A stretch of DNA of 64,000 bases from Dactylorhiza incarnata. Lineage: Eukaryota > Streptophyta > Magnoliopsida > Asparagales > Orchidaceae. The position numbers and the translations under genes are program-made. This document shows, piece by piece, positions 7,998-57,651 of the stretch (position 1 is its first letter; each line of letters starts with the position of its first letter). The notes under the pieces were generated by a model, which worked only from the letters and a program-made list of their open reading frames with translations, did no database searches and was not told the DNA's origin. Location: assembly GCA_033032865.1 (NCBI GenBank), contig JAWHQI010000019.1:16906001-16970000 (forward strand), in the 5' to 3' direction.

Positions 7998-8002
7998 ATA
8001 TG
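7998..8002. other. Target site duplication, left, of the copia element
   Basis: ATATG immediately left of the copia LTR, repeated exactly at 14565-14569. Five bases is the usual size for plant copia integrase. Confidence 0.9.
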
Positions 8003-23495: not shown

Positions 23496-24569
23496 CTACT
23501 CTTCCTCATCTATCTCCTCCACACTAGGACTTGGGGAGTGTCTTCTGCGAGCCTTCCGAGTCGAATGTCGGGGCGGCTCCTGATCTGGGCTGTCCCACTC
23601 CCTCCGCTCTGGTGTTGATGGTTTTAGCTTTAAGGCCTTGATCATAAACTTCACCATCTTCTTTATCCCTGAAACATCCTTCTCCACTTTTGCCATCCGC
23701 TCTCCCATCTCCTCTTTAAATGACCCAAATGAATCATCTCGAGCTCCTCGAGATGACGCTCCTCGCCGGAGTGGTGGTCAAGTAGATGTCGATGGTTCAT
23801 CCGGGATGAATGATGCTCGCAAGTGAGAAGTACTATAGATAGGAGGGTAGCAATCTATCAAGTAGAAACCCATTTCAATAGAAGGATACATCATCTGAAT
23901 CGCCCGCTGTATGATGCTGCCCAGGGGCAAGTTGTTGTATCTATGACGGGAAGGTTGCCGCAACTTGTAGGAATAGCGAATCAGAGAAAGTAATAAGTCA
24001 GCCACGTCGAACTTCTCCTCCTCCAAAATAAAATAAGTGACATAACTGAGCTGGGCTGTGACCTTTGCTGTGTCACCCAACTTCAGCATAATTGTGTGGC
24101 GTAATACATCCTGAACAACTAGGGCATCAACGGTGAGTGTCGACACAGACGAGATCAGACTCCTGCATTCCTTATTATGTAGCACCATGTTCACCTGAGT
24201 CCAATCTCTGTCCACCCTGAACCTCTCCACAATCTCCAAGCGATTAGAATGCTGGGACAATTCAAGCACGAGCCTCAGTAGTTCATGGGTAATGGTCACC
24301 ACTTGTCCTTGCACCTGTGACTGCACTCCTCCATCCAGCCTGGTCTGTGATATGTCTTCCAAGTGTGTATAAAAATCCCGCACTAACTCCGAAGAAAATC
24401 CATCAAAACTAAATAAATTCGACACCTCGGAAGTAGCAAATAACTGCATGACATGATATTGGTGTGGCAAGTCGAACTCCACGACATATGGAACACCTAC
24501 TACAGCTGCTTCCACGGCCAGCTCTGCTGTTTTCTTACCCTTAGATCCAGGTGCCATCTGCACATACAA
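23496..24569 (-). pseudogene. Antisense ORF of element A, plant transposon-protein-like, one stop
   Basis: A 358-codon minus-strand frame inside a plus-strand element, broken only by TGA at 23778-23780. The central part (LVRDFY...NLPLGSIIQRA) resembles the family annotated as putative plant transposon protein in many plant genomes; this is recognition by eye. A C-terminal segment (about 23700-23620) looks like a short coiled coil followed by a basic, Ser/Pro-rich, then acidic tail. The start is ATG 24567-24569 or the in-frame ATG twelve bases later. It is unrelated to gag or pol and its role in the element is unknown. Confidence 0.65.
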
Positions 24570-25645
24570 AAAAAATTAAAAAATTAAGCAACCGTTACTA
24601 GCGCCAGCGCTATCAAGAGCGCCCGGCGTTATCAATAACGCCTACTGTAGCGCTGGCACTACTCCTCTCATCTGAAATAGTAAAAATCTCCTTAAAAAAA
24701 TAAAACACTTTCAGATCCTAGATTACTAGATGCAAGAAATCCACATAAAAATCAAGATCAAAACCAAAATCCTCATAAAAACACTAATCTTGAAGAAAAT
24801 CAACCATTGTAGATCTAGTTTCTAAATCCACCTAAAAACCTCAAATATCTTCATCTCTAACATCAAAATCAAGTTTTAAAACAAAAAACATAAAAAAGGA
24901 TGAAGATTTACCTCAGATCTACGCGTGGGCTGAGTCGTCTTCTAGGGTTTTACCAGAGAGGGTGAATGAAAATGGCGAAAATGAAAAAAGAATCGGGATT
25001 TAACTAAAGGCTCGATAGCGCCAGCGCTATAACTAGCGCCAGCGGTATCCCAGCCTTCTGATTTTTACTAAAAATAAGATTCTATAAAATACCTAAAATT
25101 ATTCCCTACTATATGCACTACTTAGTGATGCAAGATTTCGTTTATTACGACTTGAGTTAGGTGTCCCAGATCTTTCGAGTTAAAATACATTCACAAAACG
25201 CAATTTTGTAATTTTTAACCATCGAAAACATCTCCTAAAAATCTGAGATTTCAGCATGGAACTACTATTAGGACACTTAATCAAGTTCAACAATTAAAAT
25301 TTTCAAAATCATAAAAAATCTTGTACTGTTTCCCGCGCTAGCGCTAACGCCGGCGCTAGCACACTTATTTGTTTTTTGGTGTTTTTAAAATTCTAAAAAA
25401 TCAATAAAAATATATTATTTTATATGCACTACTCATTTTTGCACTTTTGCTTTTATTACATTTTTGAAAAATCAAATACAAAAATACAAAAGCCAAATTA
25501 CAAAAAAAATTATGTTTTGCCTTTTTTTGGTTTTTTTTTGTTATTTGTTTAAATTTTATTTCTAAATGCAAAAATCAAATACAAAAATATAAAACAAAAA
25601 CAAGTATCAAAATTGTTATTTTGAACTTAACCTTTCCATTTACAT

Positions 25646-27938: not shown

Positions 27939-28048
27939 TTTTGGAAAATAGTCTTCCGCATCTCCTAGGTTTAAGAATAACAAATCCTATGTGTAGTTGA
28001 TCTTGTGTGTTTAAGTGTGCAGGAAATCAAAGTCCACATGACTCATGG
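27939..28048 (+). repeat. Element A 3' LTR, left fragment
   Basis: Matches the first 110 bases of the 5' LTR. The terminal TG is mutated to TT. Element B interrupts it at 28048; the 5-bp flanks CATGG (28044-28048) and CAATG (41565-41569) are an imperfect duplication. Alignment with the intact 5' LTR supports this boundary. Confidence 0.88.
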
Positions 28049-28816
28049 TGTTGAGTCCGAAATCACACCTCTGAAGGAAATCGGAGGATGCGGGTTGCCG
28101 GTTACTTTTTAGGTGGGAAACATGGGACCGCTAGCAGCGGTCAAGGCCAGACTTCGCCCGTCACGGCGAATGCCACTCCTGTGATGGGCTTTCCTTTGAT
28201 TAAATTGGGGCGGTTACAAATGCAGAAAAGAGAAACCGGCCGGTCAGACAGTCAGCAAGACAGAAAACTCGAGTCCGCAGCTCAAACAAGCGAGCTCCTG
28301 GATTCGAATCTGTGTGTCCCTTGGGAACAGTGCCGCCCCCTATTTATAAGCTCGGGGGCCTGCCCGAACGGGCAGGGATAAAATAACCGCCTGCCCGGGT
28401 ACAGGAGAAACGGGCAGGCGGTGACGGGATACACAAAGAAGGAAAAGAAAGAAGCCGCGCGACTTGGCGGCTTGCCCTTTCGAATTATCTGACCAGAGGC
28501 TGAGGATGACGTGACCAAGGCGACGATGCAATCCGGGCGGTCTTCTTCTTGAGACCGCGGCTTGTTCTTTGATCCCGAACCTTGGCTTGTCTCTATGGCA
28601 CAATCCTCCCGGTCTCCGACTTGAGACCGCGACTTGTCCTGTTGGACTTGGGCCTGGATTATCTTTAGTACTTGAGGGCGATCTGAATAATGTCAGACCG
28701 CCCGGCCTGTGCTAGTTGGTGTTGATGGACCTTGTATAACCTGAGCCGGGTGACTTGGATCCGCAAACCGAACGGTCTGCGAGTAATCCTCTTGAAAGCA
28801 GTCTTCTGGGTAAACA
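28049..28816 (-). repeat. Element B 3' LTR (left copy)
   Basis: 768 bp; ends TAAACA before TAATCCCCGC, whose complement GCGGGGATTA is the presumed polypurine end. A TATAAATAG box lies on the minus strand at 28340-28348. The first 53 bases differ from the right copy at three positions. Confidence 0.9.
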
Positions 28817-28901
28817 TAATCCCCGCATATTTTTAAATTTCCGAGAAGATTTTGAAAATATCAGTTCTAGCCGGAGACCGCGCCGATTTCACCCTGTTGG
28901 T

Positions 28902-28908
28902 TATAAAA
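28902..28908 (+). promoter_or_regulatory. Antisense TATA box before aORF1 of element B
   Basis: TATAAAA 42 bases before the aORF1 ATG, on the strand opposite gag-pol and outside the LTR. The spacing allows a very short leader. Confidence 0.6.
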
Positions 28909-28949
28909 TGTTCCAGGAGCTTCTATTCTAGCATAAATCCATTGCTATC

Positions 28950-31049
28950 ATGAGTCACTACTCGCTTATTGCGGTTATGACTTTTAGGCTGAACACCCCG
29001 AAAAATATGGTGGATTTAATGGCCCAGCTCAAAGTTCTTGAGAAGCCCGGAAAAAGCCGCGAGAGAAACTGCTCGAAGGATAAGAGGAAGAAGAATAAAA
29101 CGACGTGGCCTGAGAGTATAGTAATGATCGCTTCCACGAGTAGGCCGGCCGACCGACCTCCAGAGCTGACAGTCGACTTATCGACCAAAAATGAAGCGAG
29201 TAAGCCGACCGACCTGCATCCCGAATTGACAGTCGACTTATCGATTAGAAAGGAGGAGAGTTGCCCGAATCCATCCCCAACTGATCCCCCGACCTTCTCT
29301 GACATGGGAGACAACCCGCCTCCTCCGCCGGATAAGACAGACTTGGAGACCGTCGTCCCAAAGAGCGATGGTGATGAGTCTTTCAAGATGGAGGTCACCC
29401 CGTCCGGGGTTTTTCATCTAAAAATTAGAGATGAAGGGGGAGAGGCAGTTGACTCCCCCAAGCCGAGCGACCAGCAAGCTTCAGTAGTCAACATCGAGGA
29501 TAGCCCGGAAAAGCTAGCCATCCTGAAGTCGAAAAAGAGGAAGGAGGAGTCCGCGGCGGACAGGCTTCTGAAGAAGATGAAGAGGCTAAAAGCCAAGAAC
29601 AAGGCAGCGTCCGGGAAACCGAGAGAGGACAGCCTGCAAGGCAAGTCGCGCGAGAAGGAAGTCTCGGAGGGCCTGATTACTCCCTCCCCCAAGTCGAACG
29701 ACCAGGCTCCCGTCGATGCTCACATCATTTCCGTAAGTGACATCCTCAGGGATTTTGATTCTCTTCAGAAGCAAGATGATCAGCTGAGAACTTCTTCCGA
29801 ACTGTAGGCTGCCAACCCACCAGGACAGAAAGGAGCCGCCCTGTCTGAAGATGCGACCAGTACTAAGGAGGCCGTTCTCCCTAAGGTTGCGACTAGAACC
29901 GAGGAAATCGTACCGGCTCCCGAAGATACTGTAATGACTGGTCTCCGACTTATGCAGGTGAAGGCGGAGAGGGTAAGGGATCAGCTTACCGGGGCGCCAC
30001 CGCCGCCACCCAATCTGCTGCTGCAAGGTAAAAGTGGAGCGGATTACCACCCCGTTCGTTTTTTCATGTCGCGGCCTCGAAACAAGTCGCGTGCTTCGTT
30101 GTTGAACCCGTCGCCCAGCTTCTTTCCCTCTGCTGCTCAATTTTCTGCTGCTAAGCGGAGGCAAAGCGAGAGATCGTGGAGAGAACAACGCCGAAAGTTT
30201 GATACCGAGCAAGCAATGCTACCTGTCCGCCTGAATTCAACCCAAACCGCTGCGGCTTGTAAGCGAGGAAGTTTCGAAGAGAGCGATCTCCTTTTGAACA
30301 CTTTCTGACTGCTTTTTCTCATTGCAGATGATCGTGACTCTATTCCAAAGCTGGGCGAACTGGTGTCCTATCTCCCTCCGCTTGATCCGCCTTCGCCGGG
30401 ATCCTGGGTTGTACCAGATACTCGGATGGAGGATGAGATGGGCCGTCTTCAAAGGAATCTCGAAGCTCTTTCAAAGCAGTTGAGGGCCCTTGAGGAGCGG
30501 GAGAAGACCGCTCAAGAAGAAAAGATTGCATTGCGGGCAGAACTGGAGGCTGAAAGGAAAGAGAGTCGGGCTGTGCTGGAGACCCAGCGGAGAGAGCGCC
30601 GAGAAAAGGAGAAAGCGCAGCAAGATCAGGTGGCCGCACTGACCACCCGGGTTGATCGCAGAAAGAAGGAGATGCAGAAGCTTGAAGCGGACTGCGCCTA
30701 TTATCGGGATAAATATCTTCATTTGTCGAGGGAGATCGGCGGAAGCCGACGTCCCCTTAATGTTGCTGATGGAGGTCGGGGTGGATCACGCCGCCCGGAT
30801 GCTGGGACGAGCTCGTCTCTTCCAGCGGCCGGGACGATCCAACATATTGCTAGTGCGAATGAGCCCGCAACGGCCCTGCCTGCCCGTGTTATTCCAGCGG
30901 CGCGGGTAGAGAGGGATGCCGCGCGGCTTCATAGCATGATCAATCACCTTAATCACGGCATGAACCAAATGCAAGGGACAATTCTCCAGATAGGCGACCA
31001 AGTCGCGCGGCTTCATAGGGAATATGCGCCGATTGATGCCCGCAAATGA
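28950..31049 (+). CDS. aORF1 of element B, antisense spliced gene, intact
   Basis: Three exons with GT-AG introns restore one open frame of 574 codons: 28950-29732, 29808-30027, 30328-31049. The TAG at 29805-29807 is the 3' end of intron 1 (GTAAGT...CTGTAG, 75 nt); intron 2 is 300 nt (GTAAAA...TTGCAG). The product starts near a TATA box. It has Lys-rich and Pro-rich low-complexity parts (DNPPPPPDK near residue 130), a basic Lys-rich segment (about residues 195-225), and a long charged coiled coil in exon 3 (about residues 355-460) ending in an Ala/Arg-rich tail. I recognise no enzyme motif. It occupies the same place as aORF1 of element C. Function is unknown; nuclear or nucleic-acid binding is only a guess from the basic tracts. 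Confidence 0.7.
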
Positions 31050-31408
31050 TGAGTGATTTTAAGATCTTTATCTGTAATAATATTTCTATTCGGTCCTTTG
31101 GACAACTGTTTGAATTTGATTTCACAATATTTGGTCTGTTTTCCAGGCCGCGCGGTCTGAGTTTTTGAATTTACTTTATGTTCGTGTTGAATGTTGATTG
31201 ATGCCTGTGGACTACTTCATAAGCAGATCAGCTTCTTTCCGTGCTTTTCTAATTCGTCCACTTGAATTATACTTGTCTTGGTAATTCTTTTGTGGCGATG
31301 TGCCGGCGCGGGTTGATCGGTCTAGCCGTGATTTGACCCTTGTTAGATGCAGATCAGCCGTTCTTATAAGTAGTGTCCTTCCAAAAGTCTTTTTACCAGA
31401 ATTTCGAG
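31050..31408. other. Spacer between aORF1 and aORF2 of element B
   Basis: Noncoding. Includes CAGGCCGCGCGGTCT (31144-31158), identical to a word in the copia LTRs, and TTCTTATAAGTAGT at 31362-31375, a TATA-like box 35-45 bases before the aORF2 ATG. A near-identical box precedes aORF2 of element C. Confidence 0.65.
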
Positions 31409-33285
31409 ATGGGAGCAAAGCGCCAGCCAAATCGACCTGCGAAAACCTCTGCTACCCGCTCCGAAGCCGCTGTGGCTTTTCACTCAGCAGACCACGAGGA
31501 GTGCCGTTTGACCAAGGCCGAATTGGACGAATTCGTTGAGAAACACATGACTGACAGCTCGCTGCTCGCGCGACTTCCGCTCCGTGATGAGCGGATGAAT
31601 TCTTCTGGCCCAAACCAAATCGCGATCCCAATCGACCATTTCGATTGCGGATTTAAGTTCCCGATTTCGATTGAGCTCGCCATGGTCTTTGACCATTATG
31701 GAGTTGTACCCGGTCAGATTTCTCCTAACTCGATGGCCGGAATTTGCAGCTTCATCTCCTACCTGCGATCTGAGAGGGTCCGCTTTTCCATGGATCTCTT
31801 CAGGAAAATATTCTCGGTGCGGGCCATCCCGGACTCTGAATCGAATGTCTTCAAAGGCCATCTCTACTTTGGCTGCCGCGGGTTGAAGATGGTTAACCTC
31901 GCGAACAAGGTCACAGCCTGGTCGGAGAGATACTTGATCTTCGAAGGCCGACTTGGCCTGTTGAACCCGAATCCGCAAGTGCGGCCGGAGGAGGCCTTTC
32001 AACAGGTCGCAATAAGCGAGGTCGAGAAGAAAACCTGCAAGCTTCTCGAGGATAAGCGGCTTAACGTAAGCTACTACATCCCGCTACTTGCCGAGATAGA
32101 GAATGTTCGGCCTGAAGATAGTAAGCTTTCCTTTAACCCGCTTCCGACTTCAATATTGACCGCTCGGTCATTTGTGTTGACCCTTTCCTCTTTTTTGTAG
32201 TCGAAGCCGTTGTCCCTGCCAACAAGCCGGTCAGCCCGGCCGGTTTAATCTTAACTCAGATGGAGAAGAGAAAAAGACAAGTCAGGAACAAGCCGCTGCC
32301 ATCCGACGGGGAGGATTCGGCCTCTTCGGGCGACTTCTCCGCCCTTCGTTCCTTTAGCAAGGTGAAGGATTTAAAAGGCCGCACGGTTTTGTCATGGCAT
32401 CCGGACGGCGACGGTGTTCAGGTCTCTACCGCGCTCCCCCATTGGACGAATGAGAAGTCGGGCCGGCATGCTGAGGCCGCTAGCATTGCCATGTTTGGCC
32501 GATGGAACTTCAGGAGGTTGAGGAGGATTCCCGAGGAAGAGCTCGCCCGGGAGGCCGCGCGGGTTGGTGCCGAGAGCCTCATCACCAATGTCTTTATGGG
32601 AATGACCTTCAAAAGGTTGATTAAAGCAAATGATCACCTAGAGAAGGAAATCGCCAAATTGAAGAAGGAGAATGTGCGGCTAAAGGAAGCCGAGTCGGTA
32701 AGTTATCACCTGGCCAACCGTCCTTCTGAATTTTTCAGACCGCGCGGTCTCTTACCTTACTCTTTTTTGCAGGCAAAGTATGATGAGACCAATCCGGTTT
32801 ATCAGCAGGAACTTTTCCCTCATGTCGCCGAGGGAATCAACAATGCTTTCAACCGCCTGCGGGAGCTCAAAGCGTTCGCGCCTGGTTTCGAGCATTTTAC
32901 CTTCTCAGACGCCTACCCGATCTTGCAAAAGAAGTTAGAGAAGATCAGGCGGAAAGCCAAAGGAAAGAACAAAGCCGACGGATCCAGTTCAGAGGAGAGC
33001 GACGACGGGGATGATGAGGCCGAAGAACCTGCAGCGGCTGAGAGTGGGGAGAGTGGCTCGGAGTCCGAATCCAGCGGTTCCGAAGAAGAGGCTGGGCGCA
33101 AGTCGGGCAAATTGAGCAGTTCATCCTCGTCGGGTAGCGAGGTTACTCCCCTGACGTTTCAATTGACGGGAGCGAACACTCAAGTACCCCTGCGTCTAAG
33201 AAACTTAGGTCGCATAATTAGTAGCTGTATTTTGCTTTTTGTTTTGAATAGCCGTCGGCTTGACGTTGTTAGCCGGTCGGCTTAA
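31409..33285 (+). CDS. aORF2 of element B, antisense gene with gypsy-type transposon domain, intact
   Basis: Exons 31409-32120, 32201-32697 and 32773-33285 join in frame to 573 aa with no internal stop. Introns are GTAAGC...TTGTAG (80 nt, phase 1) and GTAAGT...TTGCAG (75 nt, phase 0). The segment IAIPIDHFDCGFKFPI...HYGVVPGQISPN...FRKIFSVRAI (about residues 70-150) matches my recollection of the putative gypsy-type transposon domain family found in plants. A coiled coil follows (around residues 370-400), then an acidic Glu/Ser-rich tail from about residue 475. Element C carries a clear homologue with two introns at the same places and phases. The role is unknown; in the Tat lineage such antisense genes are recurrent. 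Confidence 0.75.
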
Positions 33286-34373
33286 AATATAATGTAAAGA
33301 ATGTTTTGATAATGAAATGGAAAACTTTTACCTGTCTATCTGTCTACCTTTTGCGACTTACTTGTGGTTGTTTGCGATCTTTTTCTGTGTTAGATCTAAC
33401 TAAGTCGTGCGATTTAATATTATCTCATCCGGTTAGGATAATGATCTTCACAGGATTCCGGTAAAGTATCTATTAGTAAAAACCCACTCGCACAGCTTGC
33501 TTCTTTCAATCCGGATCGAATTTGTTCGATTCATTCTGAGAAAGTGCTAACTTATTATGAATGCATTACGACACCCCGGAAGCCGAACATAATCAAGCCG
33601 CGCGGTTACTACTAGACCCTGCATATTTGCTTTCCAGGATAAAGAATGGCAAGTCATAGGAACAATTATCAGACCGAGCGACCAGTACTTTAACTCAGGC
33701 GACTTGCAACTAAGATTGCTGCAAGCCCCACCCCCGTGAATGTAACTGACAACCGATCAGGATTTTGAAATAATCAAGCCGTGCGGCCATAACCTGGCTC
33801 TACATAATTGCCTTGTAAGACACAATATCAAGTCGCAAGAAGATCAGCTGATAGACCGTGCGATTAATATTTAATCCGAACAATTTATATGACAGCCTTA
33901 TATAATATTGGCTGACAACCCGCACGGGCTGTATATAGAATTTGTGCGATTAGTAGGTTTAACACTTGCAATCATAACTGTTTGATCGAAAAGAGCCTAT
34001 AATTAGCCGATCGGATAGAGTTGAAACCCATAAAGATGATAGATTCACAACCCGAATAATGAGGTCGGCCGATCATGATTATGCTTGCTCCCTTGATATT
34101 TTCCTTGTGACATTTTAATGATATCCTGTTCATTTCAAACCGTCCGGTCTGAACACCGGACCGCATGACATCTTTGGAATCTGCTGATTTTAGACCGCGT
34201 GGTTTAATAACCAGACCGCCTGAAAGCCATGGTACGTGCTTATTTCAAACCGCCCGGTTTGAGTATTAAGTCATCTGGTTTGTGATGTACATAGGAATCC
34301 TGCTTTTTCCTCCAGATGGTCTATAATGACCATATGGGATGAGATAATTTCCCTGTAATGCGATAAAGGATAA
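33286..34373. other. Noncoding 3' region of element B after aORF2
   Basis: About 1.1 kb without reading frames. It is studded with GACCGC/GCGGTC words, often in face-to-face pairs, for example at 34138-34165 (ACCGTCCGGTCTG...CCGGACCGC) and 34195-34260. No tandem periodicity is visible here. Confidence 0.6.
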
Positions 34374-34794
34374 CTACAGACTCAGATGACCAAGTGGGCA
34401 GGTGGGCCTAGGCGGCGAACATTGCTTTCCTCAAGTGGTCATAAGAGCTGTAGAAATAAAGAGAAAGAAAAGTACAGACCCAGATGACCAAGTGGGCAGG
34501 TGGGCCTAGGCGGCGAACATTGCTTTCCTCAAGTGGTCATAAGGGCTGTAAGCGACTCGACTGCTCTCTTGCCTAGGGCTACAAGCCGAGTTGATCAATT
34601 GGGCAGGTGGGCCTAGGCGGCGAACATTGATTTCCTCAGAGAGATCAACTCAGTTGTGGGTCCCTCTTAGGCATCGCTTGAGAGTACCTAGGAGTATTCG
34701 ATAGTCACAGACTAAGATGATCAGTTGGGCAGGTGTGGTTATGCTGCGGGGGCTATACCGACATTGCTTTCCTCAGAAAGATCATAAAAGCTGT
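34374..34794. repeat. Four hairpin repeat units with covarying stems
   Basis: Units at 34374-34453, 34473-34550, 34581-34657 and 34707-34794. Each has a loop with GGGCAGGTG near its start and ACATTG(C/A)TTTCCTCA near its end, flanked by complementary arms. Inner arms are ATGACCA/TGGTCAT in units 1 and 2, GAGTTGATC/GATCAACTC in unit 3 and ATGATC/GATCAT in unit 4. Outer arms are CTACAG/CTGTAG in unit 1, with CTC/GAG there and CCC/GGG in unit 2. Base changes in one arm are matched in the other. The array lies where antisense aORF2 and sense integrase converge. Confidence 0.8.
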
Positions 34795-35144
34795 AATTAT
34801 ATCCGTCTCGGGGCATGATAGAGCCAACATTCACCTAGACCTCCCTTGATGCAGGGGTGTGTTGGATATCAGCCGGGATCCAAGGTTCTGAAGACCACCG
34901 CACGGGAATTGGCAAGTTACCACTACACGTGTGCGAAAACTCCCCGCTACACATGATCTTCATGGTTTTACGCTAATGACTATAATCCGAGGGGGTTCGA
35001 GCAGAACTTGGCGATGTCTCTGTGGTTCAGTGAGTTTGATATATGAGAAAATGTAAAAAGGGAACATCAGACATGGAGAAGTGTCAGTATGGGGCTTCTT
35101 ATTAAAATATCTGAAAAATTGCAGGAAAGTAAAGAAGACATATT
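34795..35144. other. Spacer between hairpin array and integrase stop
   Basis: 350 bp of noncoding sequence in element B's sense 3' UTR. I see no further unit of the hairpin array beyond weak resemblance near 34805-34860. Confidence 0.55.
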
Positions 35145-38100
35145 TTAAGGATAGAACCGTTTGAGATCGTCACCGCTCCAAGTGCGCGAAATGTCTTCTC
35201 CCTCGCTTGTTTGGAGGCGGTAAGCCCCACTTTTTAATACCTCCTTGACGATGAAAGGTCCAGCCCAATTAGGATTTAGCTTCCTGACATTGCCTGTTCG
35301 GGCTGCTGCATCAACCTTTTTTAGCACAACGTTGCCAATCGCAAAATGCTTTACCCTGACATTTTTGTCAAAGTACTTTGCCATCCTCCTCTTAACTTCT
35401 TCTTGTCTGATTGTTGCCTCGTCTTGAAGTTCTTCGATCAGATCCAGGCTATACTTGATAGCCTCATCATTGTCTTCTATCCACGCTTCTCCTCCCTCTT
35501 TTGCATACACGACTCTTGGAGTGACTACCTCAAACTCTACAGGCACAACAGCTTCCGAGCCATGAGATAATTTGAATGGTGTATCCCCGGTAGCTGAAGA
35601 CGGGGTAATACGAAGGGTCCAGAGAATGGAAGGAAGTTGATCTGCCCAATTTCCCCTTTGATTCAAAACCCTTTTCATCAGGAGCTGCTGGATTTGCCTG
35701 TTTGCTGCTTCTACTTGGCCGTTTGTCCTTGGATAATGTACTGAGGCAAATCGAAGATCAATTCCCACCTGATCACAAAAGTTTATCATCTTCGGATTAT
35801 TGAACTGTGGACTATTATCAGTGACAATTGCTAGCGGAATTCCATGACGGCAGACTATTTCTCCCCAGATGAAGTTTCTGACAATTTGGGTTGTAGTTTT
35901 TGCCAGCGCTTTCGCCTCAATCCACTTGCTGAAATAGTCGATCATTACAATGATAAAACGACGCTGGCTGTTGGATATTGGGAAAGGTCCAATAAGATCC
36001 ATCCCCCATACTGCGAAGGGCCATGGCGCAGTTATTGATCTGAGTGACTGAGCAGGCAAATGCTGAAGAGGAGCAAACTTTTGGCACTGAACACACCGCT
36101 TGGCAAATGCCTCAGCATCCTTCCTCATGGTTGGCCAAAAATACCCCTGCCTTAAGATTCTCTTCTCTAGGGTCTTCGCTCCCGAGTGACTACCGCACTC
36201 CCCGGAATGAACTTCCTGAAGTATGGTTGGGACTTCATCCTCCGAAACACATCGTGCTGAGGGAGAAATCAAAGTTTTTCTGTAGAGAACTCCCGCTATC
36301 AGATAATAATATGCCGCTTTCCTTTTGAATCTTCTCCGATCTTTGATGGAATGGTGGAACTCCCCCTTTGATAGGAATAGCTCGTAAGGATCCTTCCATG
36401 AAGGATTATGATCAATTTGCATGAGTTCTGCCTCATCTATTGCCGGATGAAAAAGTTCAAAGGTCACTCCCCCTGATGGAAGACCGAACTTCGACAATTC
36501 ATCTGCCTCCTCATTTTGCGTTCTTGGGATGTGCTCGATAATAAATGACTTGAATCTTCCGATTTCCTTTTTGGCTAATAGCAGATATTTTCGCAGAATC
36601 GGATCCCTTGTCTCATAATTCCCCAAGACCTGGGAGGCCACCACCAGTGAATCGGTTCTAACATGTACATATTCTATGCCCAGCTCTTTCGCAAGCCTTA
36701 GCCCAGCCAGAAGTGCTTCATATTCTGCCTGGTTATTTCTAACTGGAAAGAAGAACATGATAGCTTGCTCCAGCCTGATGCCATTTGGGCTGATCAACAC
36801 TACTACGGCTCCCACGGAGTTTCTGCCAGAAGCCCCATCCACATAAATGATCCAAGCCAGAGGAGATTGTACCACTTGTTCAGGACTAAGCTCTGTTGTA
36901 TCTACCAAGAAGTCTGCCAAGATTTGTGCTTTGATTGCTGTCTGGGGGATGTACGATATCTCAAATTCACTTAGTTCAATAGCCCATTTTGCCAACCTCC
37001 CTGAATGATCCGGCTTTTCAAGAATATTTTTTAAAGGATGATCTGTAATAACTTGGACGGAATGAGCCTGAAAATAAGGGTGAAGCCTTCGCGCGGACAT
37101 AACTAAGGCCAAGGCCAGTTTCTCTAGGATCGAATATCTGGTTTCTGCATCCTTAAGGATGTGGCTGACATAGTATATTGGAAACTGCCTCCTCTTTTCT
37201 TCCCGAACGAGGACAGAAATCACCGCATCTGGTCCGACTCCCAGATATAAGAATAGCTTTTCTCCCTCACGGGGACTTTGGAGTAGTGGAGTCGAAGTTA
37301 ACTGTTCCTTCAGCTGCTCGAAAGCCTTGTTACACTACTCGCTCCATTCGAACTTTGATCCCCCTCGCAATGTTTAAAAGAATGGGGCACTTTTATCTCC
37401 GGATTTGGAGATAAACTTGCTCAATCCTGCCAATCTTCCCCCAAGTTGTTGAACTTCTTTAGTATTTCGAGGAGGGGTCATATCAAGGATGGCCTTTACC
37501 TTATCTGGATTTGGTGCAAGGCCATCAGGAGTTAAGAGATGCCCAAGAAATTATCCTTTGCTTAACCCGAACACACATTTCAATGGGTTTAATTTTAACT
37601 TGAACCTCCGTAGAGTAGCGAACGTCTCTACGAGGTCTTCCAAGTGCAATGAGAATGTTTTACTTTTGAGAAGAAGGTCATCAACGTAAACTTCGAAATT
37701 CCTGCCCTTTTGATGTTTAAAGACGGTATCAATCATTCTTTGGTATGTTGCGCCCGCATTTTTAAGACCGAAGGGCATTATGAGATAGCAGTAACACCCA
37801 TCGTTTGTGATAAATGAGGTTTGCGGGATGTCAGGTTTGTGCATTTTAATTTGATGATACCCGAAAAAGGCATCGAGGAAACTCATAAAACCATACCCAA
37901 CCGCGGAATCAACTAAGACATCTATCTGAGGCAAAGGGTAACAATCTTTAGGGCACGCTTTATTAAGTTTGGTGAAGTCCACGCACATGCGCCACTTCCC
38001 ACCAGATTTCTTAACCATTACAACATTCGACATCCACGTGGGATATTGAATCTCAGAAATGAAACCCTCTTTTAGGAGTTTGGAAACCTCCTCTCTGATG

Positions 38101-39053
38101 GGCAACGCCAGCTTGGTCGCCACTTCTCTCTTCTTTTGCTGGACGGGCTTGAATTCAGGAGACACATTTAGATGATGACAAGCCACGTCCGGATCCACTC
38201 CTGGCATATCCTCCGCTGACCAAGCGAAGATATCCAGGTTTTCCAACAGGCAGGAGATTAGCTCCATTTTCTCCTCCTCTGGCAACTCAGCGTTGATGAC
38301 CAGCTTCTTTTCTGCTCCTTTAGTAATAGGAACTTCTTGGGTCGCTTGGGCAGGTTCCAAGAGAGCCCCTTCTCGATCTTTTTCTTCCTCGGCGGCCTCT
38401 GGAGACTCAGCAATCTCCAAAGCCTCAGCCACGGCCTCGGGAAGCGGAACGTCGGTGATCATGTTGACAGTTTGGACGTAGCACTCCCGAGCCACCTTTG
38501 GGTTGCTCCTGACCCGATACTGCTTTCCTTCTGCCGCGAACTTGAGGGCAAGGTGAAAGGTCGACACTACTACCCTATATGCATTGAGAATCGGCCTTCC
38601 GAAGATGGCACAGTAGTTGCTCGGGGCATCCACTACCACAAAATTGATTAACTTTATTACTCCTCCAAGAGAGACCAGGAGCTTTACTGAGACCTCTACT
38701 TCCTTCCTTCCCCCAGAAAAGCCATAGAGGGGCCCGTCGGTGGAAAGCAAAGACTTTCCGGTCTTCAGGGCCTCGAAAGTCGGGCGGAAAAGGAGATTGA
38801 CGGAGCTGTCGGTATCAATCAGAATCTTGTGGACTGTATAGTTTTCGATGACGGCCTTGATGACCACCACATCGTCGAAAGGATTAGCATTGGGGGGAAG
38901 GTCATCCTGACCAAATGTGACAATAGTGCTTTCGGGAGGAGAACTTGTAGTAGCTGCCACTTCCTGCTTTAGAACTCTCGCAATGCTGGATTTGCGAGAT
39001 GATTCCGCTCCAGCTCCTCCATGAATACAATAGATGTCCCCTAAGGGCCCCAC
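35145..39053 (-). pseudogene. Element B pol: protease, RT, RNase H, archaeal RNase H, integrase
   Basis: One minus-strand frame from 39053 to 35145. Order: protease (ILIDTDSS near 38810, where D-[NT]-G is expected, so the catalytic Gly is Asp); RT with FLDAFFGYHQI and YVDD (near 37690); RT-linked RNase H; the second, archaeal-type RNase H (YVDGASG...NNQAEYEALLAGL, near 36850-36690); integrase with an HHCC zinc site (near 36200-36080), Asp in WGMDLIGP, Asp in VTDNSPQF and Glu in NGQVEAAN; and a C-terminal domain ending LKRFYP. Stops at 37551-37553, near 37376 and near 37337 break the RT-RNase H junction. The remaining 692 codons of RNase H and integrase are open. Putative pol start upstream is uncertain. 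Confidence 0.92.
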
Positions 39054-39547
39054 ATCTTTGACTTCGACGCATTATGTAGAAGGATGGATGCCATCATAGC
39101 AGCCGGCGTCTTCGACGTCGGCACATTCCCAGGTTACTTCTACTGTTTCTTTCTCTTTTCTCTTCTCGGCAGTTGGTTCAGCAGTTGTATCTTTCCGAAC
39201 TAGACCCCGGAGCTTTCCTTCTCCCAGGAGTCTCTCTATCAGCAAACGAAGGGACCGACAGTCTTCGGTTAGATGCCCCCTTCTTTATGATATTCACAAT
39301 AAAGGTTCGGATTTCGATTGCGGATATCTGACTTCAGAGGAGCAGGCCTTTTGAAATCTGGCCTCTTTTGTAGAATCTGGACTACTTCGTCCATGGTGAC
39401 GTTTAAGGGAGTGAATGACTCTTGCGAGTCATCATATTGAGTGGATGGAATGACTGGAGGTGGTTGCGCGGTGTACTATTGTAAGTATACCGGCATGATT
39501 TGCGGAAGAGGAGCAGATGGAGCGGGAGCGATGGCCAAAGGTTGTTT
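39054..39547 (-). pseudogene. Element B gag-protease linker with zinc-knuckle remnant
   Basis: Between the gag stop and the pol frame. A CEYHK-type zinc-knuckle remnant can be read near 39290-39305 in a shifted frame, and stops occur near 39475 and 39072. In an intact relative this would join gag to protease. Confidence 0.55.
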
Positions 39548-40747
39548 CTAATCTTGAAACCGTTGATTGCCCATGAATGGTTGCTTATTTTTGTAATTTC
39601 TCCCCCTTTGGGAACGGGGTTCAAAGTGTGACTGATTCGATGGAGGATGATGGAAGGACGCATTTGACTGCTCCTTGTCGCTTACCAGCTTTGCGACGTA
39701 GCCTGGATTACTCTTCTCTCCTCTGATAAACATATTTGCCAAACTCATCATCTCTTGATAAGTCCTAGGCTCCCTTATATTTGCTTCAAATTTTAAGGTG
39801 CCCTCCTTCAAACCATGAATGAGGGTAACCCTGTACAACTCGGGATCCACATTTTGGACCTCCATGATCTCTTTCTGGAAGTGGTCTACAAAACGAGCCC
39901 ACGTCTCGTCTTCCCGCTGTTTTATATCGAAAAGGCCCGCCGGGCCACTCTTTCTCTTCCTCGAGATAGAGAATCTCAGCAGGAATTCCCTTCGCAACTC
40001 AGCGAAACAACGGATTGACCTGGGGTGCAATCCGTCAAACCACTCTCTTGCTTGTCCTTCAAAGGAGGTCACAAGAAGCTTGCACTTGGTCGCATCAATT
40101 AAGGTTCTAAGAGCGATGGCTGACTCGAAGGCTTGTAAATGAACCGTGGGATCTGTATCCCCATTGAAAGCTGGCAGGCGAGGCTCTCTGAAATTATTAG
40201 GGGCAGGCTCCCCTCTGACTTCGTCCACAAAGGGAGAAGTTTCTTCCATATCTTCATATAGTGGAGTAGGATAATAAGCCGCCGGAGCTGCGGCTATTCG
40301 CGGACAAGCCGCCTGATAAGAGGACCGGGCGGCAGCTTCTGGCGGGTAGGAGTGATGAATAGGAACTTCAGGCGGGTAGGAAAGGCGGGCAGCGTGAGAA
40401 GCCGCCCCGTGGAAATCAAGGGCCCGAGCCGGCATGCTGTGCGCGGCTTCCTGATAGAAGCTTTGCCTAGCCGCAAAGCCTTCTTGCTGGGGCTGGAAGT
40501 TAGCGGCTTGTGGTAGCGGGTAAGGAGGAGGTGGAGGAGGGACCGGGGTCACCGCCTGATTAGCCGCGGTTTGTTGTGGAACTAGCCGCTCGGTTAGCAT
40601 TGTTATAGTCTGGCTGATCGCTTCAAGTCGTTGATCAGTGACCCTCTGAGCCCGCTCGGCTTCTCTCCTGGATTGCTCCAAGGCTTCCCACAAAGAATCC
40701 TCGCTGTGATCGGAGCGGTCTCCAGGGGGGAACTTGCGGTCTGACAT
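39548..40747 (-). CDS. Element B gag, open but cut before its zinc knuckle
   Basis: 399 aa starting 50 bases inside the right LTR, the first ATG in the sense direction. It has a charged N-terminus, a Pro/Ala/Tyr-rich linker, and a retrotransposon gag domain at about residues 190-330 with the AREWFDGL...ELRREFLLRFS core. It ends at TAG 39548-39550, after which related sequence continues in frame for about 24 codons, so the stop is probably a mutation that removes the nucleocapsid part. Confidence 0.85.
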   Translation of the reverse strand: MSDRKFPPGDRSDHSEDSLWEALEQSRREAERAQRVTDQRLEAISQTITMLTERLVPQQTAANQAVTPVPPPPPPYPLPQAANFQPQQEGFAARQSFYQEAAHSMPARALDFHGAASHAARLSYPPEVPIHHSYPPEAAARSSYQAACPRIAAAPAAYYPTPLYEDMEETSPFVDEVRGEPAPNNFREPRLPAFNGDTDPTVHLQAFESAIALRTLIDATKCKLLVTSFEGQAREWFDGLHPRSIRCFAELRREFLLRFSISRKRKSGPAGLFDIKQREDETWARFVDHFQKEIMEVQNVDPELYRVTLIHGLKEGTLKFEANIREPRTYQEMMSLANMFIRGEKSNPGYVAKLVSDKEQSNASFHHPPSNQSHFEPRSQRGRNYKNKQPFMGNQRFQD

Positions 40748-40796
40748 TGTAGTGAGGATTTCACCGACAATCCACGATCTGAAGGTCGCGTGTTTT

Positions 40797-41564
40797 TGTT
40801 GAGTCCGAAATCACACCTCCGATGGAAATCGGAGGCTGCGGGTTGCCGGTTACTTTTTAGGTGGGAAAAATGGGACCGCTAGCAGCGGTCAAGGCCAGAC
40901 TTCGCCCGTCACGGCGAATGCCACTCCTGTGATGGGCTTTCCTTTGATTAAAATGGGGCGGTTACAAATGCAGAAAAGAGAAACTGGCCGGTCAGACAGT
41001 CCGCAAGACGGAAAACACGAGTCCGCAGCTCAAACAAGCGAGCTCCTGGATTCGAGTCTGTGTGTCCCTTGGGAACAGTACCGCCCCCTATTTATAGGCT
41101 CGGGGGCCTGCCCGAACAGGCAGGGATAAAATTACCGCCTGCCTGGGTACAGGAGAAATGGGCAGGCGGTGACGGGATACAAAAAGAAGGAAAAGAAAGA
41201 AGCCGCGCGACTTGGCGGCTTGCCCTTTCGACCTGTCTGACTAGAGGCTGAGGATGACACGACCAAGGCGACGATGCAATCCGGGCAGTCTTCGTCTTGA
41301 GACCGCGGCTTGTTCTTTGATCCCGAACCTTGGCTTGTCTCTATGGCACAATCCGCCCGGTCTCCGACTTGAGACCGCGACTTGTCCTGTTGGACTTGGG
41401 CCTGGATTATCTTTAGTACTTGAGGGCGATCTGAATTATGTCAGGCCGCCCGACCTGTACTAGTTGGTGTTGATGGACCTTGTATAACCTGAGCCGGGCG
41501 ACTTGGATCCGCAAACCGCACGGTCTGCGAGTAATCCTCTTGAAAGCTGTCTTCCGGGAAAACA
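40797..41564 (-). repeat. Element B 5' LTR (right copy)
   Basis: 768 bp, partner of 28049-28816. In the minus direction it drives gag-pol: a CTATAAATAGG box lies at 41088-41098. The sequence next to its inner end does not match the initiator-Met site, and I cannot name the primer tRNA. Confidence 0.9.
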
Positions 41565-41569
41565 CAATG

Positions 41570-42558
41570 ATGGTTTCCCCTAATTTTGAGCCAGCAATTC
41601 CAAGTATCCCACTAGCATCGGCGGTAGCACTTAGGGCCTGGCGCTAGCGATGATAGCGCAATTACGGGAGCACATATGGAAGGCGATAGCGCCTGGCGGT
41701 AGCCGATAGCGTAGGCGGTAGTGACGCACACAGTTGGCAAGGAGGAATTGTTTCCTCGGATTGAAGATTCTGCCACGCAAAACATGTCCTAATATGGGAT
41801 AGCGCCGGCGGTAGCGCTAGCGCAGGCGCTAGCGCTGAGGCTATATAAAGGACCCATTGGCTTCGTCTTCCTCACTCTTCTACAACTCTAAATTCCAGAA
41901 CTTCGTGTCATATCATAGAGAGGAAATTTCAGAGAGATACTCCCACCAAAAGCTTAGAGAGAATTTCTGAAGGAGGACTTCTTCACGCTTCATCCGACCA
42001 GTGACCGCTTCAACAATGCTTATACTACAGCGGTCCAATGTCTCCAACTTCAGAAGTTCTTAGAGAGAGTTTTTATTATTGATGTTTTTATATTCACATC
42101 TTTATTCTTGTAATCGTTAGTGAATTCGCCTCGTGTTGGCGAATAGGTCTGGGTAGGACTTAGGGCAGAAATTCACCTCGTGTTGGCGACTAGGTCTCGG
42201 GTGTAGGTCTAGGGGGTGCTCGAGGCCATATCCGGGGAAGGGTTGGCTAGAGCGGCTTGAGGCCGTATCCGGGGAAGGATCGGCTAAAGCCAATCGGTTC
42301 GTGGGGATACGAGTCGGTATAGAAAACAAAAAGAGTCTTTTTATTAGCTTTGATTTCTAGCTTCGATAAGAGATCAAGTTTTGTAATCATGCTTCTCAAG
42401 TTAATAAAATCATGTCTTTACTTTTACTTCACATGATTTGTCTTGATCTTCTCTAGTTTAATAATCAAAGCTTTTCCAAAGTTATTCAAAATATATTATA
42501 AGTTTTTAAAACCCTTATTCACCCCCCCCCCCCTCTAAGGGCACCTACCGATCCAACA
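41570..42558 (+). repeat. Element A 3' LTR, right fragment
   Basis: Resumes after element B and its flank CAATG (41565-41569), and ends GATCCAACA at 42558. It keeps the GCGCTAGC-rich block, TATATAAA at 41842-41849 and a C homopolymer near 42521-42533. Confidence 0.92.
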
Positions 42559-44897: not shown

Positions 44898-45735
44898 GTA
44901 AGACCCTCTTTTTTATGCATTCTTTCTCGGGTCTTATCGCCCAGAACCACCATCTTGCGGTTGCACCATTACTCCAAATGGTCGTCGCCACAATACGTCG
45001 ATCCTACCGATTATTCATCATCATCCAGGCCTACCATAATCACAGATATGTTAAGTAAACAAGAAGCACATGTCCACAACAATCACATATTATAAATAAT
45101 ACATGTCCAAAATGAGATAATCATAAATAGCAAAGTACTAATCAGAGTGCAGAAATAGTAATGAAGTACAACTAGGACTTAAGCCTGATCTATCAGTCTC
45201 TTCTTTGCTTCTCTCCTGGCAAAGATATAGCAATCTAAACACTCACATGGCTCGACGCCCTCAATAGCATATAACTCTGCCCTCTGTCCTGGGTAGATGT
45301 GCAGAGTAGGTAAATGACGTGTGTTACTTACCTGTGTTCTCCTAGGAGCAGCGGAGAGTCCGACTCCTGGCGAGGTCGTCGTCTCAGGTACCTCCCTCTG
45401 GTGGAGGTCGTGCACTTCCATGTCTCCTGTAATAATGAGGTCCACCGACCGTCATTCTATAAGACTCAGCATATTCCTCCCCGCCTCCACCCGCGACTCC
45501 TAGGAACCATCCGGGAGGAGGAAGCAGAGGACATAAAGGGGTAATGAATCAAGCAGGTGATAAGCGGCTAGACTAACAGGGTATAGTAAATACTAAACAA
45601 ATAAGGATAACAGTTCTATGCTAGTAGAGTATAGTATGACAACAATAAGTAAAAGGCAATGCAACTAAAAGAAGCAGGTATAATAAATAGAGAGTAGCTA
45701 CAAATGTAACTTTAAGTTATATGCACACACAAAAG
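44898..45735 (-). mobile_element. Chromovirus LTR fragment in inverted orientation
   Basis: Begins TGTAAGACCC, the complement of the chromovirus LTR terminus. It follows in reverse the segments GGCGGTTCTGGGC, the primer-proximal G-rich block and GACTAACGGTCGGTGG. It is cut at 45735 by element C. The 89-codon frame at 45179-45445 falls in LTR sequence with no coding counterpart elsewhere. Confidence 0.78.
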
Positions 45736-46614
45736 TGTTGAAACCGATTTCTCGGTCTCTTGTGGAGCTCGGGGCCCTCACCGAAATGAGGGGCAGCTAG
45801 CCCTTACCGGTCCCTCGGGAGAGGTAAGGTCGACGATTCGAGCAAAGAACAAAGACCCTAGTCTCAGCGAGGAGGTCCCTCCACTAACCCGGAAGATCGT
45901 TGAGCGCTTCCCCTCCCAAGCCAAAGCTAAGACTCGGGCACCTTGGAGAGCTAGAGAGCCCAAACCAAAGCGACCTAGGGAGAGAAGAGCTCAAAGATAA
46001 TGAACCGGTCTTCCTCCAAGGTGCCCTTCACGGTCTATTTATAGATTTTGGTTTTGTGGTCTGTCAATAGCCAACTCCCGCTGTCCGTTCTTACTATCCG
46101 CACCCCAAATTGGTCTGCTAACAGCCAAACTCCGCTGTCCGGAGGGGCTAACCGCAGACCACCAGGGGTTTTTTGGTGAAAGACCATCCCAATTACCAGC
46201 GAACCCGAGACCCTCGACCTGTTCAGCGAACCTGAGGTTCGCCAAGGCCACCTAGCGAGCTCCTTCGGCTGGCTGGCTCGCCTCTTCCCGGGCTCGCCCC
46301 CACCTGTGCTCGCCCTCGGTCGCCTGGCGAACTCCTTCGGCCGGCTGGCTCGCCTGTCTCCACGGCTCGCCCGCTGAACCACTCCTTAGCGGGTCGAGCT
46401 AGCCAAAATGGCTAAATGTACCCCAGAAATGGCTATTTGCACCCCAAGGGCCCGGACCTGCCCAGCGAGCTCCTCCGACCGGCTGGCTCGCCTCTTCTCG
46501 GGCTCGCTCCCATCTGGGCTCGCCTTCGGTCGCCTGGCGAACTCCTTCAGCCGGCTGGCTCGCCTGATCGTGCGAACTTGGAACCCCTCTCCTGGCGAAT
46601 ATCGGGGTTGTACA
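45736..46614 (-). repeat. Element C left LTR
   Basis: 879 bp from TGTTGAAACC to GTTGTACA; the right edge is set by the following CAATCCCCGC, which matches the polypurine side of element B. A TATAAATAG box on the minus strand lies at 46035-46043. It differs from the middle LTR at seven sites, all transitions, all left of 46362. Confidence 0.88.
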
Positions 46615-46802
46615 CAATCCCCGCTCTTCGCGAGGTTGTCTTGAGCTCGCGAAGAAACATCCAACCCTGGTGTTCGCCGATTCGGCTGACGTGGCGGGAA
46701 TCTTGTGGTGGGTCCCACGCCCAAAGCTATAAATACCGTCCGCCGCGGCTAGTGATCAAGCTTTTTCTTCCCCATCATCCTCGCAGAAAACAACTTCTCA
46801 GA
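46615..46802. promoter_or_regulatory. Antisense promoter region before aORF1 of element C
   Basis: Plus-strand TATAAATA at 46728-46735 lies 68 bases before the aORF1 ATG, with a TGACGTGG box at 46687-46694. TGACGTGG resembles plant bZIP sites. The arrangement suggests antisense transcription independent of the LTR promoter. Confidence 0.6.
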
Positions 46803-48037
46803 ATGTCCTCCACGCTGAGCGCGCGAGATCGACTAAAGGCTTCAAGAGAGATGGCGAAGGCCCAGGTCGCCGAGCGCAACGCCTGGATGTTCAACTTGGC
46901 CACATCTCCTTCCCCACAGCCGAAGAAGGCCAAGACGGTTCGGAGGTCGCAGGGGGAGGACGTGTCGTCGCCTCCTGCCTCGCCCCCGCCGCCGGATACC
47001 GGGCTCGCACAACAGGTATTCTTCGTCTAGACTTTTTTACATCGCCTACCCATTTACTCCTTTTCCTCACGCAGAACCCTCCACCCGAGGAACGTATGGC
47101 GGGCCTCACGCTGACCTCCTCTCGCCCTCCGTCCCCCGCAAGGTTGGGATCGCTAGATGCTGTGATCGGGACTTCGACTCAGCAGGCACCGACCTCGTGA
47201 CCCCGTAAGTCATGCGTATCCTCCCTTATCTCCGCTTAAGTCCGTGTGATATCTACACGTTGGTGGCCTATGCAGATACCCCACCGCTGAGTCCCAAGGA
47301 GAAAGTCTCCACCCCGGTGAACTCGCCGGTCCCGCCTAAGGTTAACGTGGCGACCCCTGGCTTCGGTCTGATGGGCAGGCGAAGTCCAGGCGGCTCGCTT
47401 CTCGACGGCGCCCAAGTCGCGGAGAGAGTGGTGTACCCTCCTGGTCTGGGGAAACCCCACGTCCCGGGATTCCGCGAAAACTTCCAGGGTCGGCCGGAGT
47501 CTTCGCGCAAGCCCCGTCACGAGTCCCCCTTCTCGCCAGGTTAGCATGTTTCCGCGAGCTCTCGCCTCTTGCTCGTCCCCTGATCCTACTAACTCTTCCT
47601 TCGCTGAAATCTCAGGAGCCACCCCTGAGTCAGAGCACGGGAGGATGGAGATGTCACCCCCGCCTTCGCCTAGCCAGATTGAAGACTTCCTGGGTGACCC
47701 TAGCGACCCCGTGAGGATGAAGAGTCGGGTGTTCGAGGTGCTTCAGAAACACGGCATGATGTTACGCGAGTTGGAGGAGCGGTATGACGCGGACCGGGCT
47801 GCCTTTGACGAGAGATTCGCCGTGTTGGAAGAGGCGAATCTGCGCTTGATCGCCGAGGCGGAGCCGGTGCCTCGCGCAGATGTTACCTCGCCCGGCGTGC
47901 ACATCTCGCGGGGCGAGGATCAGGCACACCTAATCCTGCGCGAGCTTAAAGCGCTTCGCGAATATCATTATCCGAGAGTGCCGCCGCGTGCGGGCAAGCG
48001 GGGTCGGGGTCGCTGGAAATGGCTTCCTTACCCCTGA
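46803..48037 (+). pseudogene. aORF1 of element C, antisense spliced gene with one stop
   Basis: Exons 46803-47015, 47075-47204, 47276-47539 and 47616-48037 join with correct phases through GT-AG introns of 59, 71 and 76 nt, giving 342 codons. One TGA at 47198-47200 (end of exon 2) interrupts the frame, and no alternative donor near it keeps the frame. The product is Pro/Ser/Arg-rich with a charged helical segment in exon 4 (RMKSRVFEVLQKHGMMLREL) and a basic GRGRWKW end. No known domain. It occupies the same place as aORF1 of element B. Confidence 0.65.
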
Positions 48038-48562
48038 GGCTGCCGCGGGTTTAATTCTACTATCTTTCTGCTTTTATTTCTTTCATGACGCCTGTTGAAC
48101 AATATCTGGTGTGGTAATATTCGCGAGTCCGTTGCAACTCGCCTTTTATCGTTTTTCCTTTTTAATTTTTCCCTTTATTTCTGTGGTGTGCATGTGGTTT
48201 ATTCAGTTCGTCCGCTGTGTTTGATATGATCGCCCTCGCGGAGCGCTTGCGAGCTTCTGTGCAACGCTATGCCCGGACCCCTTTTCTTCGCGGGTCGGCC
48301 TTGGGCGGGACCCAATTACCGCGCGACGGCGAGCCCTGGCTCGCAAGACTGCAGTCCCTTTGAGCAGAAATCTACTTTATTTTAGCTATCCGCACTCCTG
48401 ACGCTTCGATTCCCGTGCCCACCCGAAATTCTTATAAATAGTTCGGATTCACTTTCCTACCCGTCGCATTTATTTCCCCAGTCTTCTCGCGTCTACGCTC
48501 ATCTCCGTTCTCGCAAGATCGTGCTCGCGTTCGCTGCTTGTGAGTTGCCTCTTCCTGACTCG
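48038..48562. promoter_or_regulatory. Spacer with TATA box before aORF2 of element C
   Basis: 525 bp. TTCTTATAAATAGT at 48429-48442 nearly equals the box before aORF2 of element B (TTCTTATAAGTAGT). The rest is GCGAG/CTCGC-rich without a reading frame. Confidence 0.6.
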
Positions 48563-51858: not shown

Positions 51859-51955
51859 ATGTCCACCCTGCTGCGGCCTCAGTACAGCAGTAGTTATAAG
51901 CATTATATACGAAAAAAGAAGAGTAAGCCATTTATTAAATAACATGACAAAGCGT

Positions 51956-56040: not shown

Positions 56041-56107
56041 GGATCACTCTGATCCCTCCCCTACTCCCCAGATCTGCTCTATCCTCACACCTTTCCTCCT
56101 CCTCCTC

Positions 56108-57628: not shown

Positions 57629-57651
57629 GCTCCACGCTCACCGCACCAAAA

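Follow-up and report, generated by a model that had tools for sequence, protein, structure and literature searches.

Four hairpins of one design stand in a row between the integrase gene and the antisense reading frames of a retrotransposon in the orchid Dactylorhiza incarnata, and the question that they raise is whether such an array is kept as a folded structure and, if it is, on which molecule and to what end. The array lies in a 64,000-nucleotide stretch of contig JAWHQI010000019.1, here called the window; all coordinates below are window positions unless a locus is named. The region between pol and the 3' long terminal repeat (LTR) of Retand elements is known for tandem repeats and antisense open reading frames (ORFs), and the available text of PMC11963269 states the origin and function of these repeats as unknown.

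The host element

The array belongs to a Tat element that occupies positions 28049-41568, with its sense strand on the minus strand of the window. The LTR pair, 5' at 40797-41568 and 3' at 28049-28820 (both minus strand, about 772 bp), is 95.3% identical. The flanks show no clean target-site duplication, and the element sits within the LTR of another retroelement (20453-21548; 27941-28043 plus 41566-42558). A minus-strand ORF inside this outer element (23778-24575) has a weak match to Transposase_32 (PF20167), under the curated cut-off.

Domain searches identified a sense gag ORF (39548-40810, minus), a sense ORF with a reverse transcriptase (RT) domain (37551-39071, minus), and a sense ORF with RNase H, additional RNase H, and integrase domains (35145-37334, minus), the last carrying RT_RNaseH at 33-124, RVT_3 at 166-283, and Integrase_H2C2 at 364-420 within the one ORF. 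On the plus strand, an antisense ORF at 31370-32200 contains TRP28 (Transposase_28, PF04195; E 4e-9), and the final antisense open frame ahead of the array, at 32137-33285, has no Pfam domain. The additional RNase H between RNase H and integrase is a Retand trait common to Ogre (PMC6317226), and an antisense TRP28 ORF between pol and the 3' LTR, as found here, is reported for 97% of Retand clusters (Vicient 2025, PMC11963269). The LTR of about 772 bp, the internal region of 11,976 bp, and the pol-3' LTR region of 6,324 bp all fall within the Retand ranges of 315-1,194, 7,380-12,869, and 2,933-6,566 bp (PMC11963269). As judged by domain order, TRP28, and sizes, the element is a Retand-type Tat LTR retrotransposon. 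Among the best 120 of 1154 matches to the integrase ORF, the closest proteins, from Platanthera zijinensis, are 57-62% identical and cover 58-100% of the query, and the remainder show 34-46% identity.

An earlier reading of the letters alone (the sequence-only reading) had placed the array in the sense 3' untranslated region (UTR) of a Tat element, at the point where sense and antisense transcripts converge. Both placements hold: the integrase frame reads on the minus strand and ends at 35145, the antisense frames read on the plus strand and end at 33285, and the array lies between them.

Two further elements share the window. A Copia-type element at 9748-13092 (minus strand) has gag-integrase and RT split over two ORFs. 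A second Tat-like element (45726-64000), with gag at 57637-56108, RT at 54919-54155, and RNase H-integrase at 54154-52214, all on the minus strand, lies between two direct repeats, each at least 6.36 kb long and with 9.2 copies of a 95-bp tandem repeat; the two share 99.8% identity and are apparently giant, very young LTRs. The hairpin unit model gave no match in this second element at E up to 5.

Four hairpin units

The four units are found where the sequence-only reading had put them, at 34376-34451, 34474-34549, 34581-34657, and 34707-34794 (all on the minus strand), with start-to-start distances of 98, 107, and 126 nucleotides (nt). They score 102, 101, 91, and 88 bits, respectively, with unit model R1, which was built with unit 1. 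Each has an outer stem P1, an inner stem P2, a conserved two-sided core, and a variable inner stem P3. The outer stem consists of ACAG/CTGT or ACAA/TTGT plus a bulge plus up to 3 pairs, the inner stem has 6-7 pairs, and an internal loop separates the two stems. In unit 1 the arms are at 34376-34392 and 34436-34451, and the core, read on the plus strand, runs from GGGCAGGTG (34396-34404) to TTTCCTCA (34426-34433). The general form of the core is GGGCAGGTG...CATTG(C/A)TTTCCTCA, enclosing a variable inner hairpin; in unit 4 the same core encloses a long inner stem-loop (P3). GGGCAGGTG occurs four times in the array and once elsewhere in the window (52523, minus), compared to a shuffle expectation of 0.38 for the whole window.

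The arms do change jointly, as had been claimed: 5 of the 16 proposed pairs differ on both sides between units, and all of these are still Watson-Crick. Unit 2 has one compensated pair relative to unit 1 (T-A to C-G), and unit 3 has four two-sided changes (G-C/A-T, C-G/G-C, and A-T/T-A, plus a C-G/T-A change that it has in common with unit 4). Units 1 and 2 differ at only 2 of 77 bases, and the two are pairing partners, for which P is about 0.0016 under uniform placement and 0.018 when each arm is taken to carry one change. At 13 positions in its arms unit 3 departs from unit 1, and it keeps 14 Watson-Crick pairs with no net pair loss (P 3e-5 under random placement; P 0.0017 for the two-sided count), and its internal loop gains extra pairs. 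For unit 1 versus unit 4, the pairing is unexceptional (P 0.14 and 0.08). Departures from pairing are A.A and G.A at 2 of 16 pairs in units 1, 2, and 4, with an additional A.A in unit 4; unit 3 has a single C.A mismatch in the outer stem (a U.G wobble on the sense strand), and units 3 and 4 both have A.A in place of the innermost pair.

At E up to 5 the unit model found no fifth unit in the window, and it did not bear out a suspected degenerate unit near 34300-34340. The non-coding stretch between the integrase stop and unit 4 (34797-34950) is partly conserved even in locus L055, with 74% identity over 267 bp including unit 4.

Related arrays in the genome

In the 3.27-Gb genome of the same plant, the exact core pattern matched 9,877 + 10,140 = 20,017 times, and a reversed-pattern control matched 0 times. 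If four units per element are typical, this corresponds to an order of magnitude of 5,000 arrays. When the pattern required C after GGGCAGGTG, so that the two commonest inner forms dropped out, 348 + 410 = 758 further and more varied matches were obtained. A 79-base unit used as a DNA query against the genome gave no match in a search that skips common words, compared with the 20,017 found by pattern. In IMG/VR the core pattern matched two contigs (L001 and L002), which gave no blastn match to the window, and no relative of the integrase was found in the viral contigs.

We inspected 33 arrays among the matches listed for the first pattern and 29 loci, amounting to 25 arrays, from the second. 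The array is shared by several families of Retand/Tat elements within this one plant genome, where it adjoins integrase, and units related to those of the window adjoin integrases of 63-92% identity. Of 27 arrays scanned with the covariance model of the unit, 13 have four units, 8 have three, 5 have two, and 1 has five, a tally that makes four the commonest count and that is no census, as several of the arrays fed the model, some loci were cut, and all except the window were found by pattern. Loci were picked by the exact core, and units within loci were picked by the core with up to 2 mismatches on each side, so the core conservation, with about 19 positions invariant or nearly so, is partly built in. 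The arms were absent from every search pattern, and the covariation tests below use the arms only.

One subfamily (L066, L070-L076, L085, and L086) is unusual in that its first two cores are only about 76-77 nt apart, with arms sharing sequence, as if the core had been duplicated into an arm.

Covariation in the stems

Two alignments were analyzed: A1, with 40 units, and A2, with 77. For A2, 184 units were collected (two false regular-expression hits were dropped), 170 of them distinct and 76 remaining without near-duplicates, to which window unit 2 was added. A comparison of aligned copies with a shuffled null, which the sequence-only reading had proposed as a check, showed covariation above shuffles in both alignments. 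In A1, standard pairs reach 81.4%, compared to 73.1% in shuffles, with 62 two-sided cells versus 25±4 and a covariation score of 0.235 versus 0.118±0.010 (0 of 500 shuffles). In A2 the values are 77.7% versus 67.9%, 171 versus 79±8, and 0.310 versus 0.167±0.008 (again 0 of 500). The number of pairs showing two-sided change was reached in 7 of 500 shuffles for A1 and 27 of 500 for A2, and further pair types were unremarkable (380 and 100 of 500, respectively). Partners slid out of register pair in 16-36% in A1 and in 19-37% of cells in A2, the latter against 77.7% for the proposed partners.

We also used a tree-aware null, in which the parsimony count of changes in each column was placed randomly on the tree from a paired root. 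For the 77 units, Watson-Crick cells number 906 versus 731±43 and two-sided Watson-Crick cells 166 versus 54.5±16.5; with the tree made from non-arm columns, the expectations become 676±48 and 64±18. Because the proposal of the structure had drawn on no units but those of the window, tests without them are independent of them. When the four window units were left out, the counts were 852 versus 699±40 and 156 versus 43±15, and with the non-arm tree as well, 852 versus 625±47 and 156 versus 64±16. In all of these comparisons, 0 of 400 simulations reached the observed value.

A G-test of all pairs against the tree null (60 simulations) found none of 3,655 pairs at E<0.05, the best being columns 40-47 (E = 0.42), in the inner loop and outside the stems. 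Limited to the 16 proposed pairs (E rescaled by 16/3655), the same test passed five at E<0.05 (0.007, 0.010, 0.010, 0.019, and 0.037). The claim of a maintained fold thus stands for the pairs as a set, across related copies, alignments, and null models, and not pair by pair in the all-pairs test. The outcome of unguided RNAalifold is similarly divided: all 77 rows gave no pairs, and 33 rows that were hand-picked for diversity, with the odd L066/L070/L071 subfamily left out, recovered P1 and P2 on both the sense strand (-7.61 kcal/mol, two-sided changes in 9 of 16 pairs) and the antisense strand (-7.26 kcal/mol, 7 of 19). The sense prediction adds a core helix, AGG/CCU. The P3 stem is preserved by almost every one of 36 distinct long forms but hardly varies, so it says little. 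Folding energies are modest, and the case therefore rests on covariation.

A proposed docking site on the genomic RNA

We propose, with a rough probability of 0.45, that the array is a multivalent docking site on the sense (genomic) RNA for a putative partner. This reading is ranked first because a conserved core, variable stems, and repetition together have the anatomy of protein docking, and because the sense RNA at this place is the genomic RNA just after pol. The core would be the recognized face, the stems would present it, and the repetition of units would allow cooperative binding. Candidate partners are Gag or integrase, which would select the genomic RNA, and a host factor for RNA export or stability, as in the case of the CTE, RTE, and MTE elements.

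The HIV Rev/RRE system combines a multi-site RNA element with an accessory protein encoded by the same element. By analogy, the Retand-type element also codes for a putative nucleic-acid-binding accessory protein, TRP28, here on the opposite strand. Since TRP28 is predicted to bind nucleic acid (PMC11963269), we name it, as a guess, as a third candidate. In one specific, unlikely version of the docking reading, the cores of the genomic RNA are bound by TRP28 made from the opposite strand, which would thereby govern, in a Rev/RRE-like manner, whether that RNA is exported, packaged, or able to escape silencing.

Apparent exchange of modules and the possibility of DNA hairpins

By blastn, homology between the window and elements of the C-type ends 11-26 nt beyond unit 1 (at 34365 in L057 and 34350 in L056), and homology with L058 ends at 33898. 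Farther out the matches are all short: the TRP28 stretch, a 103-bp piece shared with L058 (33270-33370), and, in L057, parts of the LTR. Over pol and array, locus L058 and the window are 91% identical, and yet in TRP28 the identity is just 58%. More generally, pol similarity among the related elements is 79-91% at the nucleotide level, and TRP28, with 58-60% amino acid identity to L056, L057, and L058 in every case, does not follow pol; no TRP28 was found in L055. From these comparisons, recombination seems to have given the antisense-ORF module a history separate from that of pol.

The inner loops show a pattern of their own. Unit 3 of L053 (L053:700-797) keeps its own stems around a long inner form of the unit-4 type, and in C-type arrays (L007, L010, and L031) the inner loops of all four units are mostly CTCGGC. 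Inner loops seem to be exchanged or homogenized between units, and stems seem to be unit-specific.

The hairpins could instead act as DNA or cDNA, as single-stranded DNA, cruciforms, or sites of RT pausing or template switching, with the array as the recombination joint between pol and the antisense ORFs. The homology breaks just past unit 1, the contrast between the array and TRP28 in L058, and the unit-4-type loop within the L053 unit all speak for this explanation, as does the fact that pairing is almost wholly Watson-Crick and that any strand bias is too unclear to single out one strand as the RNA. A plain hairpin, however, has no need of a conserved core (allowing for the selection of loci by core), and single units fold somewhat better as sense RNA. 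We consider this explanation rather unlikely.

Evidence on strand and a possible antisense role

Fold z scores for units 1-4 are -2.96, -2.14, -2.87, and -0.77 on the minus strand and -2.32, -2.50, -0.81, and -1.12 on the plus strand. Among 89 units, the mean is -2.88 for sense and -2.35 for antisense, and sense is lower in 72. The whole 521-nt region, compared to shuffles, gives z scores of -3.06 antisense and -2.30 sense. Wobbles at internal nodes are 104 of the sense type versus 40 of the antisense type, representing only 13 versus 9 events; on terminal branches the events are 28 and 30. The evidence on strand, and on RNA versus DNA, is mixed because G-U pairs are fewer than in the tree-aware null on both strands and the 521-nt region folds better antisense; it leans slightly to sense RNA. 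The sequence-only reading had spoken of a folded RNA or cruciform, of which the hairpin holds up and the nature of the molecule is left with this divided evidence.

It had also listed a small-RNA precursor among possible roles. This is unlikely because the stems have at most about 15 bp, with loops, rather than a long near-perfect duplex.

Another possibility is that the array belongs to the 3' UTR of an antisense TRP28 mRNA on the plus strand, where it would serve as a terminator or as a signal for the 3' end or for stability; splice-like motifs (CAG|GTG, TTTCCTCAG) may be part of it. The array lies about 1.1 kb past the final antisense stop, L056-L058 likewise encode TRP28, the core gains pairs including G-U on the antisense strand, and the whole region folds better than shuffles on the plus strand. 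Against this, single units fold slightly better as sense RNA, and the splice-like motifs within one unit are too close together, the minimum length of plant introns exceeding their distance. An AATAAA at 34455, the sole one on the plus strand within 33200-35200, was considered as an antisense poly(A) signal and set aside, as it is missing there in the C-type arrays examined. An antisense 3' UTR element is unlikely in our view.

Rates of change and selection

Between the window and C-type L056, identity is 96% in arms, 93% in core, 70% in spacers, 78% in the 3' flank, and 81% in integrase coding sequence; for L057 the values are 93, 92, 71, 77, and 85%, respectively. The nearest relative, L058, is not discriminating (arms 98%, core 96%, spacers 95%, flank 94%, and integrase 91%), and L055, with three units, aligns poorly with the window (arms 46%, core 69%, and integrase 66%). 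In a comparison of 20 loci, in which each unit took its score from whichever of the four window units matched it best, a flattering choice, and in which integrase was unmatched in one locus and covered less than 250 nt in two, there are eight loci with an integrase identity of 63-69%, and in these the identity is 56-81% for the arms and 73-93% for the cores. Across such loci the stems drift while pairing persists.

In a tree of the 170 distinct units, internal branches carry 37 changes from Watson-Crick to wobble or mismatch, 38 back, and 8 direct two-sided changes. Terminal branches carry 102, 27, and 5, respectively, although parsimony pushes singletons onto terminal branches and inflates the ratio of 102:27. 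The contrast looks like upkeep in active lineages followed by decay after insertion; pairing would have been selected while the Retand/Tat families were active. We hold it very probable that the hairpin structure has been selected at all.

A neutral origin would have a tandem repeat amplified in a hypervariable 3' UTR, with the complementarity of the arms produced by template-switch mutation and not by selection. Tandem repeats are indeed described as common in Tat 3' UTRs (PMC11963269; PMC7004042), and a single template-switch event can create and repair stems (PMC8794818). Nevertheless, when A- and C-type elements are compared, integrase coding sequence has changed faster than the arms, and the number and spacing of units are similar across families. 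Judged by eye only, neither unit 3 nor L069 has an arm that simply copies, in reverse, the other arm of a relative, and a simple template-switch origin was rejected for these two. Taken together, a neutral origin seems quite improbable.

A small self-cleaving ribozyme or other catalytic RNA, suggested only by an architecture in which nearly invariant core positions are framed by variable helices, is very improbable, since cleavage of the genomic RNA would be expected to harm the element and Rfam gave no match above the gathering threshold in the whole window (four sub-threshold, E 0.71-8.6) and a single sub-threshold match in four relatives (E 0.038; L083:381-473, outside the units).

Relation to known elements

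The CTE of simian type D viruses is a retroviral RNA export element. Together with the RTE of IAP and the MTE of musD (PMC12786077), it offers a functional parallel to the proposed docking site: these too are structured cis-acting RNAs in the genomic RNA of retroelements, with possible protein recruitment. The analogy has its limits, as the array has no sequence or Rfam match to them, is present in two to five tandem copies, and belongs to a plant host.

In VANDAL transposons, VANC proteins are element-encoded factors with tandem target motifs in the element's non-coding DNA. The likeness would lie in the combination of an element-encoded factor with repeated motifs; VANDALs differ in being DNA transposons, with short DNA motifs and not hairpins.

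Nearer in descent are the Tat 3' UTR repeats and Ogre-derived satellites (PMC7004042), which resemble the array in lineage, region, and satellite-like unit length, the start-to-start distance in the window family being about 97-126 nt. The array shares their tandem repetition. Such repeats are, however, described in the available text as family-specific or hypervariable, whereas here one unit with covarying stems recurs across families and is not a family-specific, fast-evolving sequence. A word search of the available text of PMC11963269 and PMC7004042 returned 0 occurrences of "hairpin" and 0 of "secondary structure", and a literature search on 3' hairpins of LTR retrotransposons and on Retand and orchid elements found, among titles and abstract openings, no such element described.

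Part of the Retand pol-3' LTR region here behaves as a selected structured element that crosses families, with at least 20,017 cores in one genome. The question of its function becomes a testable one, of which protein binds the core and which transcript is involved, and the covariance model of the unit can be used to search other plants. If the Rev/RRE-like reading with TRP28 is true, plant LTR retrotransposons would hold thousands of copies of a regulatory pair encoded by the element itself, and the array, its RNA component, would stand for a structured, repeated RNA of a new class. More broadly, the finding speaks against dismissing the satellite-like repeats of Tat elements as junk in every case.
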